This document shows positions 1-64,000 of a DNA stretch of 64,000 nucleotides, piece by piece. The notes under the pieces were generated by a model, which was not told where the DNA came from, did not search any database, and saw only the letters and a list, made by a program, of their open reading frames with translations. A program made the position numbers and the translations under genes. Every line of letters begins with the position of its first letter. The first letter of the stretch is position 1. This DNA is from Acidobacteriota bacterium (GTDB lineage Bacteria > Acidobacteriota > Thermoanaerobaculia > Gp7-AA8 > JAHWKK01): assembly GCA_019347945.1 (NCBI GenBank), contig JAHWKK010000022.1, positions 1 through 64,000 of the forward strand. Direction: 5' to 3'.

Positions 1-194
1 CTCCCTCCCCCACCCCCCCCCCCCCCCCTCTTCCCCCCCGCTCCCCCCCCCCGCCCGGGCCACCCCCCCGCCGGTCCGCCGGGGGCGCTGCGTTCGTCGC
101 CCGCACCCCCCCCCTCTTACCCCCCCTCCACACCCCCCCCCCCATCCTACTCCCCCCCCACCCCCCCCGACCCCGCCCTCTTCGCGGGTCATGT
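1..194. other. C-rich low-complexity contig end
   Basis: This stretch consists almost entirely of C runs with scattered A, T and G, unlike the balanced high-GC coding sequence that follows. No gene, terminator or ordered tandem unit can be recognised in it. The downstream antitoxin frame loses its normal N-terminus exactly here, which suggests that the bases are wrong and not that this is a natural element. The likely origin is a homopolymer sequencing or assembly artefact at a contig edge. Confidence 0.75.
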
Positions 195-7773: not shown

Positions 7774-8003
7774 AAGCAGGGGGTCAGGGATCAGGGATCA
7801 GGGGTCAGCGCATATCCGGCACGGCCGGCTCGGCCAATCCAGTACGTAGGTTCGATTTCCGGGACAGGCGCGTGGTCCAACGTCGTGCCCGACCGCGACG
7901 GCGTCATTGCCCGCGTTGCGCGTGGAGAAACAGGCCCACGTAAAAGACGCTCCTAGGTTGTCATCCCGGGCGTGCGCTGATCCCTGATCCCTGATCCCTC
8001 TGA
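7774..8003. repeat. Repeat-bounded cassette A (GGGATCA heptamers)
   Basis: Between sufB and the symporter, the left side (7784-7811) carries about four heptamers of the type GGGATCA, ending in CAGCGC. The right side (7974-8003) carries the reverse complement (GCGCTGATCCC, then TGATCCC units). The two arms match over about 26 bases with one or two mismatches and enclose about 160 bases with no evident gene. The left arm starts right after the sufB stop codon (TAG then AAGCAGG). The interior contains GTCATCCCGGGCG next to the right arm, reminiscent of the GTCATCCTGAGC box in cassette B. Confidence 0.85.
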
Positions 8004-9925: not shown

Positions 9926-10523
9926 GGGCGGGTTGGAGGTTGGAGGTTGGAGGTACACGACTCGCGAGATCAAACACTCGTCATCCTGAGCAAGTACACC
10001 GGGGCCAAAAGGCCTCGTGGGATCGGAGATGAACCCCGGAAATGTGACCCTGGCGCGGAGCGCTGGTTCCGTGAGGCCGGGCACGGGCGCGGGCACGGGC
10101 ACGGGAAAGACCTCGCGAACGGATGTTTCATTAGGCGCAAGTGACCGGTGCCTTGCGCCGGTGAAACGGAAATGACACCCGTGAGTGCAGAAACAACCGC
10201 ACTCGCGTACTCAAACCGACGTCATCCTGAGCGGGCGGTCGGGCGGGCAGGCGAAGGACCTCGCAGGTTGGGACATCAGCCCAAGCGAGGCGCTGCAAGT
10301 GGGTCGAAATCCAACAATTCGTGGTCGTTTCATCCTGAGCCGCCGAAGGACGTCGAAGGATCTGGGGGAGGGTCCGTGAGTCAACGTGCCCGCGCCTGAA
10401 GCTTTGATTCATGATCCCCGCCCAGATTCTTCGCCCGTGCTGCGCCGGGCTCAGAATGACGTGGGTTAGTATCCCGAGCCCCGAGCCCCAAACCTCCAAC
10501 TTCAAACCTCCAACCTCCAACCT
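9926..10523. repeat. Repeat-bounded cassette B (GGTTGGA heptamers)
   Basis: This fills the 600 bases between the convergent SET-domain and enolase genes. The left array (9931-9954) is three GGTTGGA units plus GGT. The right array (10490-10523) is the reverse complement (ACCTCCA type) and begins eight bases past the enolase stop. Inside are several GTCATCCTGAGC-like boxes (about 9979, 10221 and 10330, and one inverted near 10450), a palindrome around GACCGGTGCCTTGCGCCGGT (10143-10162), a short GGGCAC tandem (about 10078-10103) and the 90-bp module also found in cassettes E and G. No convincing coding sequence is present. Confidence 0.88.
10210..10298 (+). repeat. Dispersed 90-bp module, copy 1
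   Basis: This block runs from ACTCAAACCGACGTCATCC through GGTTGGGACATCAGCCCAAG to GCGCTGCAA. It recurs inverted at 52915-53005 and directly at 62570-62660 with about 85-90 percent identity by eye. It contains the C-G-G-G-C-G-G-T-C-G-G-G-C-G-G-G-C-A tract shared by all three copies. It is always inside a heptamer-bounded cassette. Confidence 0.85.
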
Positions 10524-11824: not shown

Positions 11825-11830
11825 CTAACT

Positions 11831-12026
11831 GAAGAGTGAAGGGTGAAGAGTGAAGAGTGAAAGAGAAGAGTGAAGAGTGAAGGGTGAAGAGTGAAGGGGT
11901 GGAAAAAGGCGATGCCTGCCTCCTCTCATCCTTTTTCTTTTCACACTTCGGTCTTACTTCTTAACTGGAAAAGGATCAACCTTGGTTGAGCCGTTTTCAC
12001 TCTTCACTCTTCACCCTTCACTCTTC
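11831..12026. repeat. Repeat-bounded cassette C (GAAGAGT heptamers)
   Basis: It lies between the divergent enolase and MATE genes. The left array (11831-11897) has about nine GAAGAGT/GAAGGGT heptamers interrupted by an AAGA insertion. The right array (11994-12026) holds the reverse complement (TTCACTC/TTCACCC units). The enclosed 95 bases are AT-richer than the surroundings and contain AACCTTGGTT and runs of T, so promoter elements for either gene could sit here. Unlike the other cassettes, both arrays face start codons, not stop codons. Confidence 0.85.
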
Positions 12027-19286: not shown

Positions 19287-19655
19287 AGGCAGGAATCAGG
19301 ATCCAGGAGGCAGGATCCAGGAGGCAGGATCCAGGAGACAGGATCCAGGAGACAGGATCCAAGAGGCAGGAACCAGGATCCAGGAGCCTCAGTGTTCCGT
19401 GGCTTCCGACCCGGATGTTTGCTCGCTCCGTAATGAGCTTGGATCCGAACGCCAGTAGTGATTCCGGGTGACCGCCGGAATCCTGCTTCGTCGGTCGATT
19501 GTGAGAGTGTCTGGATCCGCGCATCCAAGAACCAAATCGCCGACTCCTCGATCCACTTGCGGCTGGTGTTTGCTGGCTCCTGATTCATGATTCCTGATTC
19601 CTGGCTCCTGGCTCCTGGCTCCTGATTCCTGGCTCCTGGCTCCTGGATCCTGATT
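19287..19655. repeat. Repeat-bounded cassette D (CAGGANN heptamers)
   Basis: It fills the whole 369 bases between the stop codons of the convergent YeaQ-like and polA genes. The left array (19287-19387) holds fourteen heptamers of consensus CAGGANN (CAGGATC alternating with CAGGAGG or CAGGAGA). The right array (about 19575-19655) holds eleven or twelve reverse-complement units (GCTCCTG, ATTCCTG). Both arrays abut their neighbouring stop codons with no spacer. The central ~190 bases contain no clear gene or hairpin and differ from the interiors of B, E and G. Confidence 0.9.
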
Positions 19656-51820: not shown

Positions 51821-52758
51821 CCGAAAGGGTGCGGACCGGTGTGGTCGGAGTCGGCTACCTCGGAGGGCTTCATACACGCGTTCTCACGGAGATACCGGAG
51901 GTCGAGCTCGTCGGGTTCGTCGAACCGGATGATCGGCGCGCCGGGGAGATCGGGGAGAAGTTCGGCCTGCAGCGATTCGATTCGGTTGCGGCGATTGCCC
52001 CCGAGATCGAGGCATGCGTCGTCGCGACTCCGACGGTCGAACATCACCGCGTTTCGGTCGAGCTGCTCGAGGCGGGCGTCGACGTGATGATCGAAAAACC
52101 GATCACCGCAAGCCTCGAGGAGGCGAACGAGCTGATCGGAATCGCCGAATCGAACGGCCGGCTCATTCAGGTCGGTCACGTCGAGCGATACAACCCGGCG
52201 ATCGTTGCCGCCGCACCCGCCGTCAGCGAGCCCCGATACGTCGAAGCGCAGCGGATCGGCGTTTTTTCGGCACGCTCTCTCGACATCGACGTCCTTCTCG
52301 ATCTGATGATCCACGACATCCATCTCGTCTATTCGCTCATCGGCAAGCCGGTCGTCGAGATCAGGGCGATCGGGATCCCGGTTCTGACCGACAGAGTCGA
52401 CATGGCGAACGTCCGGCTCGAAATGGAGGGAGGCGCGGTCGCCAACCTCGTCGCCAGCCGTGTCGCCAACGACAAGATGAGGAAGTTCAGAATCTTCGGC
52501 AAGGATTCCTATGTGTCGGTCGACACGAAGGACCAGGACGCTCGCGGTTACAGGCTCCTGCGCGATGGGGACTCGAAAACGGTCGAGGTTCTCAACCTCG
52601 AGGTCGAGCGGAAGGAGCCGCTCAGGGCAGAGCTGGATGCGTTCATCGACTGCGTGCGCTCGCGCGAGAAGCCGCTCGTCGACGGACGGGATGGGATGGC
52701 CGCCCTCGAGCTCGCGCTCAGAATCGGTGAGGAGATCGAGCGTACGACGCCTGTTTAG
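51817..52758 (+). CDS. Gfo/Idh/MocA-family oxidoreductase, lipid A operon
   Basis: A 313-residue NAD(P)-dependent sugar dehydrogenase. The Rossmann motif is G-V-V-G-V-G-Y-L-G near the N-terminus, followed by E-K-P-I-T-A in the conserved active-site loop and a beta-rich C-terminal half with G-H-V-E-R-Y-N-P-A and D-L-M-I-H-D-I-H. Such genes are often found after lpxA. In some bacteria a related enzyme (GnnA) oxidises UDP-GlcNAc so that an aminotransferase can make the 2,3-diamino sugar of lipid A; no such aminotransferase gene adjoins it, so the substrate is open. The ATG overlaps the lpxA stop (ATGA), and the TAG stop is immediately followed by the heptamer array of cassette E. Confidence 0.88.
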   Translation: MTERVRTGVVGVGYLGGLHTRVLTEIPEVELVGFVEPDDRRAGEIGEKFGLQRFDSVAAIAPEIEACVVATPTVEHHRVSVELLEAGVDVMIEKPITASLEEANELIGIAESNGRLIQVGHVERYNPAIVAAAPAVSEPRYVEAQRIGVFSARSLDIDVLLDLMIHDIHLVYSLIGKPVVEIRAIGIPVLTDRVDMANVRLEMEGGAVANLVASRVANDKMRKFRIFGKDSYVSVDTKDQDARGYRLLRDGDSKTVEVLNLEVERKEPLRAELDAFIDCVRSREKPLVDGRDGMAALELALRIGEEIERTTPV

Positions 52759-53179
52759 AAGCAGGAATCAGGAATCAGGAGTCAGGAATCAGGGATCATG
52801 AATCAACTCTCAGCGATGGCGAAACCCTGATTCACGAGCCTGCCGCCAGATCCTTCGCCGTCCTCCGGCGGCTCCTAATGAAACGGCCACGAAATTTTTT
52901 GGACTTTGACCCTTTTGCGGCGCTTCGCTTGGGCTGATGTCCCAACCTGCAAGGTCCCTCGCTTGCCCACCCGACCGCCCGCTCGGGACGACGTCGGTTT
53001 GAGTATGGGGTGCGGAGTTTTGCGGGATCCGGTTTTCATTCCCGCTTCACCGGCGCAACGCGCCGGTCAATTGCTCAGGATGACGAGTGATCCATCTCCC
53101 ACGTTTTCACATTCTAAAATTTCTGGTTCCTGCTTCCTGGTTCCTGCCCCCTGATCCCTGATCCCTAATCCCTGCTTCT
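52759..53179. repeat. Repeat-bounded cassette E (CAGGAAT / TGATCCC heptamers)
   Basis: It lies between the convergent oxidoreductase and YbdG-like genes. The left array (52759-52806) starts at the base after the TAG stop: AAGCAGG, then CAGGAAT-type heptamers. The right array (about 53122-53179) holds reverse-complement units (TGGTTCC, TGATCCC) and ends in CCTGCTTCT. The interior is homologous, in reverse orientation, to the interior of cassette B over several hundred bases, including the 90-bp module (52915-53005), the GCGCCGG palindrome near 53050-53068 and an inverted GTCATCCTGAGC box near 53071-53083. Confidence 0.9.
52915..53005 (-). repeat. Dispersed 90-bp module, copy 2 (inverted)
   Basis: This is the reverse complement of the block at 10210-10298: ATACTCAAACCGACGTCGTC, then the G-rich tract, GGTTGGGACATCAGCCCAAG and GCGCCGCAA on the minus strand. 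Flanking sequence on both sides also matches cassette B, so the shared element in these two cassettes is longer than in cassette G. Confidence 0.85.
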
Positions 53180-54405
53180 CTCATCCTCTCGAAATCGTGA
53201 CCCGTCGGATTCTGGAAAACGCGGAGGCCGAATTCGGGCAGGATCGCGAGAAGGTGATCGAAGACGTCCGCCTGGATCGCTTCGTACTCCGCCCACGCGG
53301 TGGTCTTCGTGAAGACGTAGATCTCGAGAGGCAGACCATCGGAGCCCGGCTCGAGATGCCGGACCAGAAAGGTCATCGCGGAATGAACGTCGGGACGCTG
53401 CTGAAGATACTTGACGACATACGCGCGGAAAGTGCCGACATTCGTGAGGCGCCGCGCATTGGCGACGAGATCGGACTCGGTCAGGACCTTTTTATTGTAC
53501 TCCTCGAGCTCCGATCGCTTTCCTGCGATGTAGTCGCGCAGGAGGACGAAGCGTTCGAATCGCTCGATCTCGGCCTGATCGAGGAACCGGATCGAGCGCA
53601 TGTCGATGTGGATCGGACGCTTGATCCGCCGGCCGCCCGACTCCTGCATGCCGCGCCAGTTGCGGAACGACTCGTCGATCAGCTTGTAAGTCGGGATCGT
53701 CGTGATCGTCTTGTCCCAGTTCTGAACCTTGACCGTGTGGAGCGCGATGTCGATGACGTCGCCATCCGCGCCGTACTTCGGCATCTCGATCCAGTCGCCG
53801 ATCCGGACCATGTCGTTCGATGCGATCTGGATGCTGGCGACCAGTGAAAGGATCGTGTCGCGGAAGATCAGAAGAACGACCGCCGTCATCGCTCCGATTC
53901 CGGTGAGCAGATAGAGCGGCGAGCGATCGAGCACCAGCGCAATCGCGAACACGACTGCCATGATGAAGAGAAAGATCTTGGCGATCTGAAGGTAACCTTT
54001 GATTGGCCGCCCTCGTGACACCGGATACGACGAGTAGACCTCGTTGGTGGCGGTCAGGATCGCGCTGATCAGCATGACCACGACGAAGACCATCGCCGCC
54101 AGCATGACGTTGAGCAGACGGTCGATGGCCTCCGGGTCGATGCCCGGAAGCAACGGCAGTCCGAAGTGCAGAACGACCAGCGGCATCAGAGCTGCCGCAC
54201 GCCGCAGGACCTTCGGCTGGAGGAGCACGTCGTCCCAGCTGAATCGAGAGTTCCGGACCATGCTGGTCACGGCGCGGGTCAGGTACCTCCGGACGACGAA
54301 GTAACTGAGAGCCGCGGCGAGCAGCAGACTCGAGGTTCCGAGGAGCGTCGCCAGCGCAGGATGAGCCTCCAGCCACGCTGCGATGCGAGTCAGCGACTCA
54401 TTCAT
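53107..54405 (-). CDS. YbdG-like mechanosensitive channel (MscS family)
   Basis: A 432-residue MscS-superfamily protein with about five N-terminal helices, then the pore-like helix (L-T-G-I-G-A-M-T-A-V-V-L-L-I-F-R-D-T-I-L-S-L-V) and the beta domain V-R-I-G-D-W-I-E-M-P. The sequence pattern and the ending F-Q-N-P-T-G-H-D fit the YbdG group, osmotic-shock channels of the inner membrane. After E-R-M the reading frame runs into cassette E: the last ~25 residues (R-E-A-G-I-R-D-Q-G onward) are encoded by the heptamer array. The start at 54405 overlaps the metX stop by eight bases. Confidence 0.9.
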   Translation of the reverse strand: MNESLTRIAAWLEAHPALATLLGTSSLLLAAALSYFVVRRYLTRAVTSMVRNSRFSWDDVLLQPKVLRRAAALMPLVVLHFGLPLLPGIDPEAIDRLLNVMLAAMVFVVVMLISAILTATNEVYSSYPVSRGRPIKGYLQIAKIFLFIMAVVFAIALVLDRSPLYLLTGIGAMTAVVLLIFRDTILSLVASIQIASNDMVRIGDWIEMPKYGADGDVIDIALHTVKVQNWDKTITTIPTYKLIDESFRNWRGMQESGGRRIKRPIHIDMRSIRFLDQAEIERFERFVLLRDYIAGKRSELEEYNKKVLTESDLVANARRLTNVGTFRAYVVKYLQQRPDVHSAMTFLVRHLEPGSDGLPLEIYVFTKTTAWAEYEAIQADVFDHLLAILPEFGLRVFQNPTGHDFERMREAGIRDQGSGGRNQEAGTRNFRM

Positions 54406-60506: not shown

Positions 60507-60664
60507 AAGCAGGTTGGAGGTTGGAGGTTGGAGGTCGAAAGGGCTCGGACGGTCGCGAGTGACGACGTCGTGAGGTTCTGTTTCGTCTCTCAGTCCACGA
60601 CGTCCACATCGTCCACGACGTCCACATCGTCCACAACCTCAAACCTCCAACCTCCAACCTTCCA
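60507..60664. repeat. Repeat-bounded cassette F (TTGGAGG heptamers, plus a 9-bp tandem)
   Basis: The left array (60507-60534) begins after the bshA stop as AAGCAGG and three TTGGAGG units. The right array (60635-60664) is ACCTCAA/ACCTCCA reverse-complement units. Just before the right array is a second tandem repeat, five 9-base units CGTCCACGA/CGTCCACAT (about 60592-60635). The left-right unit is the same family as cassette B (GGTTGGA). The interior is only about 100 bases and lacks the module seen in B, E and G. Confidence 0.87.
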
Positions 60665-62440: not shown

Positions 62441-62735
62441 AAAAGAGTGAAGAGTGAAGGGTGAAGGGTGAAAAAAAGAGTGAAGAGTGAAGAGTGAAGA
62501 GTGAAAAAGAGAGACTCACCCCGCCCAGATTTCTTCGCCCGCGCTTCGCCGGGCCCGGACCGCTCGCGCATACTCACCTGACGTCATCCCGAGCGGGCGG
62601 TCGGGCGGGCAAGCGAGGGACCTCTCAGGTTGGGACATCAGGCCAAGCGAAGCGCTGGAAGGCGTCGCGTGCAAAGAACGAAGCTCGTGAGTCGACGGTG
62701 CCGGTGCCTCTCTTTCACTCTTCACTCTTCTTTTC
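62441..62735. repeat. Repeat-bounded cassette G (GAAGAGT heptamers)
   Basis: The left array (62441-62508) is a run of GAAGAGT/GAAGGGT units with A-rich interruptions; the right array (62710-62735) is the reverse complement (TTCACTC). The interior carries the third copy of the 90-bp module (62570-62660) and a second shared block, CCGCCCAGATTTCTTCGCCC (62521-62540), which also occurs near 10420 in cassette B. The left array lies just upstream of the amidohydrolase start. The right array overlaps the final codons of the DUF418 gene. Confidence 0.88.
62570..62660 (+). repeat. Dispersed 90-bp module, copy 3
   Basis: A third copy, in the same orientation as at 10210-10298: ATACTCACCTGACGTCATCC through GGTTGGGACATCAGGCCAAG to GCGCTGGAA. 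It is shorter on its flanks than copies 1 and 2, so the 90-bp module is the unit common to all. Confidence 0.83.
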
Positions 62736-64000
62736 TCACCATCGGCTGGAAACGCATATAGGTGAGCGAGCGCCAGATCCACTCGAGAGGTCCGAATCGG
62801 AACCGCCGCAACCACAGCGAGCTCAGCCACGCTTCGAGCGCAAAGATGGCGATCGTCATCGGGAGAAACCAAGCGGGTCCGAGCGTTCCGTAAAGCCCGA
62901 GGCCCCAGCTGTAGAAGATCGCCGTGCCGATGACCGCCTGACCGATGTAGTTGCTCAGCGCGGTCCTGCCGATTGCCGCTCCGGACGCGAAACGACGCCG
63001 CCAGACCCGGGACTGGCAGAGAAGGATGATCGCAATGATGTAACCCGCGCTGAGAAGGGGAACGCTGAAGTACTGGATTACGAACGCGACGAGACCGAGT
63101 GGCGATGGAGGAAAGGGAGGGGCGGGATCGAACCATCGGATCAGCGTGGCCGCGACGTTTCCCGCAACGCCGAGCACGAGACACCAGATCATGACGGTCC
63201 GGTAGCGTCCGAGCTTTTCCGGAGGCGGTGTGAGCAGCCGCTTTCTCCATGTCCACATACCAGCGAGAAACAGTGCGAGCAACTGTGAGAAAAGGATCGG
63301 CAGGTAGTTCCAGTTCTGCCCGAAGACCTCACTGACGCGCTGCGCCTGGATCTCACCGAGGCTTCCGAGGGCATAGGCATTCATGGCCTGGGCGATGACT
63401 TCGGGGTCGCCCGCGGGATCGGGGACCTCGAACCCGGTTGCGATGATGAAGATCCCGCCGAGCAGGGTGATGAGGAGCGGCACGAAGTAGAGCGGCACGG
63501 CCCAGAAGAAAATCGTCCGGTCCTTCGCGTTCCGAAAGAAGAGAAGAAAGAGGCCCGTCAGCGCGTAGGGAACCAGGATGTCGCCCCACCAGATGAAGAG
63601 CCCGTGAACGAGCCCGAAGCCGATGAGGATCAGCAGCCGTCGAATGTAGCGGCCGCCGAACCGCGCGCCGCGGGCTCGGCTCCGCTCGAGCTGAACCGCG
63701 AAGCCGATTCCGAAGAGGAGAGCGAAAATCGTGATGAATTTCCCCTGGATGAACGTATCGATGAACGCCTGCGCCAGCCGGTCCGGCATTGCCGTCCAGA
63801 AGCGGCGCGGGTCGAAGTAGACGACGGCGGGAGCGGCGAATCCGCGCATGTTCGCGGCGAGTATGCCGAAAAGCGCGAGTCCGCGAAGGACGTCGATCGT
63901 CAGAACCCGCTCGGTGAGCGAGATCGGAGCGATCGGATCGGTCAGCGGAGCGCTCGACTCCTCGGGAAGCTCGAGGGCGGGTTGCGGGACGGCAGCTGGA
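62722..64000 (-). CDS. DUF418 membrane protein, 5' end beyond the window
   Basis: The C-terminal 425 codons of a DUF418 family membrane protein, with about ten helices. Beyond an internal ATG at 63849 the frame stays open to the window end with L-T-E-R-V-L-T-I-D-V-L-R-G-L-A-L-F-G-I-L, the N-terminal motif of DUF418, so the gene begins near or beyond 64000. Other markers are G-K-F-I-T-I-F-A-L-L-F-G and G-R-T-A-L-S-N-Y-I-G-Q. The family is related to membrane acyltransferases, function unproven. The stop codon and last residues (R-K-E-E) lie inside the right array of cassette G. Confidence 0.92.
   Translation of the reverse strand, partial: PAAVPQPALELPEESSAPLTDPIAPISLTERVLTIDVLRGLALFGILAANMRGFAAPAVVYFDPRRFWTAMPDRLAQAFIDTFIQGKFITIFALLFGIGFAVQLERSRARGARFGGRYIRRLLILIGFGLVHGLFIWWGDILVPYALTGLFLLFFRNAKDRTIFFWAVPLYFVPLLITLLGGIFIIATGFEVPDPAGDPEVIAQAMNAYALGSLGEIQAQRVSEVFGQNWNYLPILFSQLLALFLAGMWTWRKRLLTPPPEKLGRYRTVMIWCLVLGVAGNVAATLIRWFDPAPPFPPSPLGLVAFVIQYFSVPLLSAGYIIAIILLCQSRVWRRRFASGAAIGRTALSNYIGQAVIGTAIFYSWGLGLYGTLGPAWFLPMTIAIFALEAWLSSLWLRRFRFGPLEWIWRSLTYMRFQPMVRKEE

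Follow-up and report, generated by a model that had tools for sequence, protein, structure and literature searches.

Background

Intergenic heptameric repeats have been described in Xanthomonas (GGGAATC) and Nostoc (GGGGA(C/T)T), and the excess of heptamers in the intergenic DNA of bacteria is a long-standing observation that lacks an explanation (Rehm et al. 2015, PMC4692102). Two Xanthomonas genomes contain 70 and 75 convergent cases in which two sites lie on opposite strands, and 83% of the repeats of Xcc and Xac are common to both in context (PMC4692102). The TAACTGA repeats of the Beggiatoaceae comprise 169 direct-repeat sets and one indirect repeat, and they lie mostly just upstream of start codons (MacGregor 2015, PMC4679880). 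REP and REPIN elements are linked to TnpA-REP/RAYT (PMC3116915, PMC8266576). Convergent heptamer pairs are thus already known from Xanthomonas, the nearest described system that we found. The STRR heptamers of cyanobacteria, which Elhai et al. are said to have described in 2008, reportedly contain embedded small dispersed repeats of 21-27 nt. A literature search, largely confined to papers outside subscription, found no description of acidobacterial heptamers or of the box string introduced below.

The window analyzed here is a stretch of 64,000 nucleotides (contig JAHWKK010000022.1) from an Acidobacteriota genome of 3.72 Mb (49 contigs, 99.65% complete). Among named genomes, the best matches to its enolase are in gp7/Thermoanaerobaculia Acidobacteriota (73-80%). 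The heptamer-bounded cassettes of the window, A to G, are listed in Table 1. An Rfam search of the window returned tRNAs only. The C-rich, low-complexity start of the window (1-180) is possibly an assembly artefact.

Table 1. Positions of the heptamer-bounded cassettes in the window and of their parts
Feature	Position	Strand	Remark
B left arm	9931-9954	+	Purine-rich heptamer array GGTTGGA
B first GTCATCCTGAGC box	9980-9991	+	Start of box stem-loop; matches E box on other strand
B-only segment	9999-10136	+	Second dispersed repeat; 84% over 146 bp in L030
Interior common to B, E and at least 40 genome places	10137-10418	+	Alignment, genome search, shuffles
Most conserved interior module	10208-10317	+	88% to E
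Box GTCATCCTGAGC and partner GCGAAGGACCT within this module of B	10221-10232, 10251-10261	+	
B third box stem-loop	10327-10365	+	GTTTCATCCTGAGC...GGATCTGG
B closing box	10424-10461	-	Reverse orientation; AGATTCTTCGCCC...GCTCAGAATGAC
B right arm	10473-10523	-	Pyrimidine-rich array with end TCCAACCTCCAACCT
E left arm	52758-52805	+	Heptamer array CAGGAAT; overlaps interior end at GATTCATGATCCC (reverse complement)
E interior	52790-53092	-	Reverse complement of B interior; box GCTCAGGATGAC at 53073-53084
E right arm	53120-53173	-	Pyrimidine-rich array; CTGATCC / TGGTTCC units
Cassette A	7780-7999		CAGGGAT arms; interior without repeat in own-genome sequence searched
Cassette C	11830-12026		GAAGAGT arms; between divergent enolase and MatE genes
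Cassette D	19290-19655		CAGGATC/CAGGAGN arms; interior without repeat in own-genome sequence searched
Cassette F	60511-60660		GGTTGGA arms flanking 9-base tandem array (GTCCACGAC)
Cassette G	62443-62739		GAAGAGT arms; truncated interior 62580-62661, 91% to B

Cassettes B and E contain the same interior

The interior of cassette B was originally predicted to align with the reverse complement of the interior of cassette E, and pairwise alignment bears this out, with roughly 80% identity across some 280 bp (B approximately 10137-10418, E 52790-53074 reverse-complemented). The genome-wide search returned the same pair at 242 bits, with 80% identity over query positions 2-283. Each piece of the alignment was judged against 200 dinucleotide shuffles. 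The central module (88% over 110 columns) scores 155 against a best shuffle of 28, the piece to its left (84% over 45 columns) 55 against 23, the piece to its right (79% over 106 columns) 93 against 25, and the left end of B including the first box (89% over 28 columns) 41 against 22. The scores of these pieces in the same orientation are at background level. The similarity is therefore not confined to a 90-bp module surrounded by background identity, since identity in the pieces outside the 110-bp module is 79-89% and their scores exceed the best shuffle by a factor of about two to four.

Every feature that the original prediction named was found in B and E, and the bounding heptamers differ as it described (GGTTGGA in B, CAGGAAT/CAGGGAT in E). 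A segment of about 138 bp in B (9999-10136) has no counterpart in E and joins the main interior at the common string GCAAGT. The right end of B (10419-10470) is missing from E because the heptamer arm of E begins there, at a short string, TGATTCATGATCCC, similar in its own right to the heptamer TGATCCC. On the minus strand, the mechanosensitive-channel gene reads through the E array (53107-53180), and heptamers encode the C-terminal tail predicted for its product (EAGIRDQGSGGRNQEAGTRNFRM).

The interior is a dispersed repeat

The genome-wide search placed the interior in at least 40 locations of about 160 bp or more in the source genome, which is a lower bound based on scoring 40 of 177 candidates. 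Genomes of the same order and of the same class match it over the box only, so the 300-bp interior is limited to the source lineage among the genomes searched. The GTCATCCTGAGC boxes had been likened to dispersed repeats of other acidobacterial genomes, and the search supports this: 17 of 41 related Acidobacteriota genomes were matched, although matches beyond the source genome span no more than the box. No copy of the interior was found in a plasmid collection, and the lone match in a viral contig (L308) was rejected as an 18-base chance match. Arms elsewhere enclose other dispersed repeats or, in cassettes A, C, D and F, sequence without a repeat in the material searched. A further dispersed repeat, around GAGGGYGAGGCKCCTGCCGAGCCGCACC, also lies within heptamer arms (L048 17655-17775, L050 6573-6854 and L020).

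Boxes form stem-loops

Boxes of the form GTCATNNNGAG...CGANNNAYC occur 78 times in the Acidobacteriota sequence examined. Their triplets are complementary in 71 cases, compared with 31.8 expected from the margins, and five pair types are represented. This covariation in GTCATNNNGAG...CGAN'N'N'AYC indicates that the boxes are stem-loops. The GA adjoining the stem is constant on both sides, which would allow tandem G-A pairs, and the conserved string 5' of the stem is GTCAT. Within the interior, TCCT/AGGA and TCCC/GGGA switch jointly, and this change may represent one event inherited by a subfamily. Among 28 interiors, RNAalifold detected no pair in which both partners change, and the box stem emerges only when it is named, not from RNAalifold on the full interior. 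A short-loop form of the box is present in 8 of 60 sampled genomes of the phylum. A 1.19-Mb sample of other phyla yielded no instance of the box pattern, although these phyla may still carry it beyond that sample.

Heptamer arms have a fixed period and polarity

Tandem arrays of period 7 occur 51 times in 464 kb of the source genome, compared with at most three arrays for each other period that is not a multiple of 7; this sample was partly chosen, with 8 of 20 extra stretches picked for holding interiors, so the density of arrays is biased and their period is not. The arm classes in this genome are GGTTGGA, GAAGAGT, CAGGGAT, CAGGAGN, GCCGGTT and some rarer ones. Searching the genome with a heptamer 20-mer gave 235 + 267 matches with no more than one mismatch (control, 0). 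Mirror arms are often anchored at their outer ends. Array lengths differ between loci, and the arms of cassette C mirror each other at 100% over the outer 32 nt, one variant unit included. Short heptamer hairpins with both arms of one class in the Acidobacteriota sequence examined fall into about 20 classes, and 53 of them are purine-first, 2 are pyrimidine-first and 4 are ambiguous. Quadruplex-capable GGG tracts are present in CAGGGAT and absent from GAAGAGT, GGTTGGA, GAAGGCA, GGATGGC and others.

Arrays in the source genome appear to be unevenly spread between contigs (C1-C4 compared with C5, C8, C9, C11, C14 and C22), with none in 10 of 12 unselected 20-kb stretches. Among the places listed, no exact GAAGAGT array falls on such long contigs as C3 and C4. 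Three genomes of the class have arrays upstream of enolase, of GAAGAGT type in the window genome (11816-12046) and in L073 (9820-9975) and of CTGAGTG type in L071 (9892-9920). Nine-base tandem arrays that resemble heptamers are found at 60593-60637 of the window (GTCCACGAC) and at 88100-88190 of contig C29 of a genome of the same order, G005 (L173 8100-8190, NNATAGGAC), where the array forms an inverted hairpin. Exact GAAGAGT arrays also occur in 46 IMG/VR viral-contig stretches (L309-L354), some of which have several other heptamer arrays (e.g., L330).

Interiors are nested inside inverted arms

When 30 copies of the interior are brought into one orientation, the nearest array to the left is purine-rich in all 24 cases and the nearest to the right is pyrimidine-rich in all 18; the half-purine class GCCGGTT was assigned its orientation from the GGTT/AACC strings. 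Of the 30 copies, 16 have both arms, compared with 3 of 4800 random intergenic positions, and 26 have one or more arms, compared with 164 of the 4800. The random positions were taken from 12 stretches that had not been picked for interiors. Since the polarity of the arms is fixed by side, the interiors lie inside inverted arms, whereas mere adjacency to hairpins would give both kinds of arm on each side. Among the 16 two-armed copies, about half carry matching classes left and right and the remainder are mixed. In many cases, 100-500 bp of unrelated interior sits between the arms. General fold-back of the interior was rejected, as the palindromy of the segments connecting arm to interior is similar within cassettes (median score 14) and between them (12).

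The proposal that interiors and boundary arrays are independent modules stands in part. The same interior is combined with GGTTGGA, GAAGAGT, CAGGGAT, CAGGAGN and GCCGGTT arms, but its location between purine-left and pyrimidine-right arms is far above chance. Interiors and arm classes are consequently independent in combination and not in location. Several GAAGAGT-armed copies also have a common inner segment adjoining the arm (AAGAGACGCCGCGAAGGTAACC), which suggests that copying events sometimes include an arm together with part of the interior. The opposite arms of such copies differ (e.g., L015 and L027). Two layers of short repeats thus assemble non-randomly.

Hairpins are present or absent between congeners

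The evidence for insertion comes from two genomes of one genus, G005 and G008, in another family of the order; the relatives compared are all from outside the genus and the family of the organism that carries B and E. In 540 kb, G005 contains 101 period-7 arrays as well as 36 compact hairpins, every one of them purine-first, and its heptamers differ from those of the window genome. A 56-kb block of G005 (C29, 69-125 kb) is syntenic with contig C8 of G008, mostly at 75-90% identity. Heptamer arrays occur at seven loci of the G005 block, whereas none was found in the 58.8-kb G008 contig, and the box palindromes and the 9-base-unit hairpin of the block are also missing from G008. At three junctions, neighboring genes of G008 overlap or are almost contiguous, whereas the G005 junction is about 90-105 nt longer and includes a hairpin. 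One such junction reads TGA-GTT-ATG in G008 and TAG-(hairpin)-ATC-ATG in G005, and in another example GTATGAAGCTC is interrupted by about 98 bp. Because the G008 junctions are compact, gain in G005 is likelier than loss in G008, although the direction is not formally polarized. An early reading in which G008 had no heptamer hairpins at all was dropped, as about 10 of its loci match one G005 class, GAAGGCA, which has tens of loci in G005.

No clear target duplication was seen at the syntenic G005/G008 junctions, which are compared at only about 80% identity. By eye, only AT adjoins the GAAGGCA arms, and the outer flanks have extra inverted symmetry in a few cases only. Hairpin loops of the same class look mutually unrelated despite their near-identical arms, and no convincing match to G005 loops was found elsewhere within the 540 kb.

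Origin of the cassettes

Interiors lie inside arms of any class, hairpins are present or absent between congeners, and the box stem is constrained. One reading of these observations, to which we give an even chance, is that each cassette is a stack of small hairpin elements, non-coding and inserted into intergenic DNA, with heptamer hairpins outermost and box elements inside. The outer layer would be a hairpin with two tandem-heptamer arms, purine-rich on the inward-reading strand, with many different sequences but a fixed period and polarity. The inner layer would be a family of box elements made from the GTCATNNNGAG...CGAN'N'N'AYC stem-loops, to which the 300-bp interior of B and E would belong. 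Hairpin elements would insert into short intergenic junctions, box elements would then enter the hairpin loop or be captured in it, and arms might be swapped by recombination or template switching in common interiors and at short common strings. B and E may be two such copies with the box element oppositely oriented within different arms. The unrelated loops of same-class hairpins count against nested insertion, as they would be unexpected under simple copying of whole hairpins. It also counts against this reading that neither a target duplication nor a transposase linked to the elements was found.

The most plausible candidate for the agent is a Y1/HUH transposase of the host that would act in trans on hairpins in single-stranded form, although copy number and linkage give no support. 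The number of Y1 genes was rejected as a driver, since two genomes with 7 and 10 of them (G002 and G036) have no arrays in the sampled stretches, whereas G005 has one and many arrays. No box was found within the 2-5 kb around the Y1 genes examined, which were those of the source genome and some relatives. Loss of SbcCD was also considered as a reason for the survival of palindromes; SbcD is absent over the cut-off in the source genome and nearly all relatives, array-rich and array-poor alike, and so does not discriminate between them.

Tandem slippage with template switching between arms (quasi-palindrome repair) could build or homogenize arms in place, without mobility. Mirror arms with variant units in register, such as the 32 nt of cassette C, and the variation of array length from locus to locus are what this process would produce. 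It is nevertheless unlikely, as a single genome repeats a small set of heptamers at numerous unrelated loci (235 + 267 matches), arrays are missing at the syntenic sites of a congener, and slippage offers no reason for the strong preference for period 7 (51 arrays versus at most 3). The hairpins might instead be retained as RNA devices, whether bidirectional terminators, mRNA stabilizers or attenuators, that spread by selection and conversion. Symmetric purine-first stems read alike from either strand and some hairpins are near start codons, but rough gene calls reveal no enrichment at convergent ends (27 tandem, 10 divergent and 5 convergent in G005; 16, 9 and 9 in the source genome). The absence of hairpins from the syntenic sites of the congener and the 100-500 bp of unrelated sequence that arms often enclose also argue against such a role, which we regard as quite improbable.

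In healing of a telomere type, a templated process would extend the two 3' ends of a broken or single-stranded site by the same purine heptamer, and the ends would then be joined head to head, leaving interiors as filler or captured DNA. This process accounts for constant polarity across many heptamer classes, mirror arms anchored at their outer ends, regular outer and ragged inner units, unrelated loops, mixed-class arms and the lack of a visible target duplication. However, fixed heptamers at dozens of loci would require a dedicated template, and no RVT_1 reverse transcriptase was found in the source genome or in two other heptamer-bearing genomes (G012 and G007). Several units of arm plus inner segment are also common to different loci, which de novo addition does not predict, and there is little probability that the cassettes arose in this way.

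Comparison with known systems

The arrays described here are arms of presence/absence hairpins, and their strand polarity is nearly fixed across about 20 unrelated heptamers. These elements could belong to a mobile class of bacterial hairpins that is recognized by architecture (period 7, inverted, purine-first arms) with any heptamer, expands in bursts in single lineages, provides landing or capture sites for dispersed repeats and depends on a single-strand DNA mechanism. We put this generalization forward tentatively and with considerable doubt. The questions of why the unit is seven and how it spreads can now be tested, because congeneric genomes supply both filled and empty sites.

Like the Xanthomonas repeats, these are intergenic tandem heptamers with paired convergent arrays, a G/purine-first polarity and inverted pairs that could form stem-loops. 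Xanthomonas and Nostoc have one G-quadruplex-forming heptamer per group, whereas many heptamers occur per genome here and most are without GGG. Unlike in Xanthomonas, the arms are often 100-600 bp apart and enclose other sequence, including dispersed repeats. G005 and G008 also have no repeats in common in the block compared, in contrast to the 83% for Xcc and Xac. The TAACTGA repeats of the Beggiatoaceae are likewise abundant intergenic heptamers, but they are a single heptamer in nearly all direct repeats.

The boxes resemble REP/REPIN elements in being short intergenic stem-loops in many copies, often as inverted doublets, with conserved unpaired positions in the stem region and compensatory stem changes (71 of 78 versus 31.8 expected). 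They differ from them in having GTCAT rather than a GTAG/GGAG-type tetranucleotide 5' of the stem, and none lies beside the Y1 genes examined as it would with a repeat-flanked cognate RAYT. The cyanobacterial STRR repeats reportedly likewise combine small structured dispersed repeats with heptamer arrays in nested insertions. By these reported features rather than by sequence, the present cassettes differ in that their interior is about 300 bp long and lies between inverted arms.
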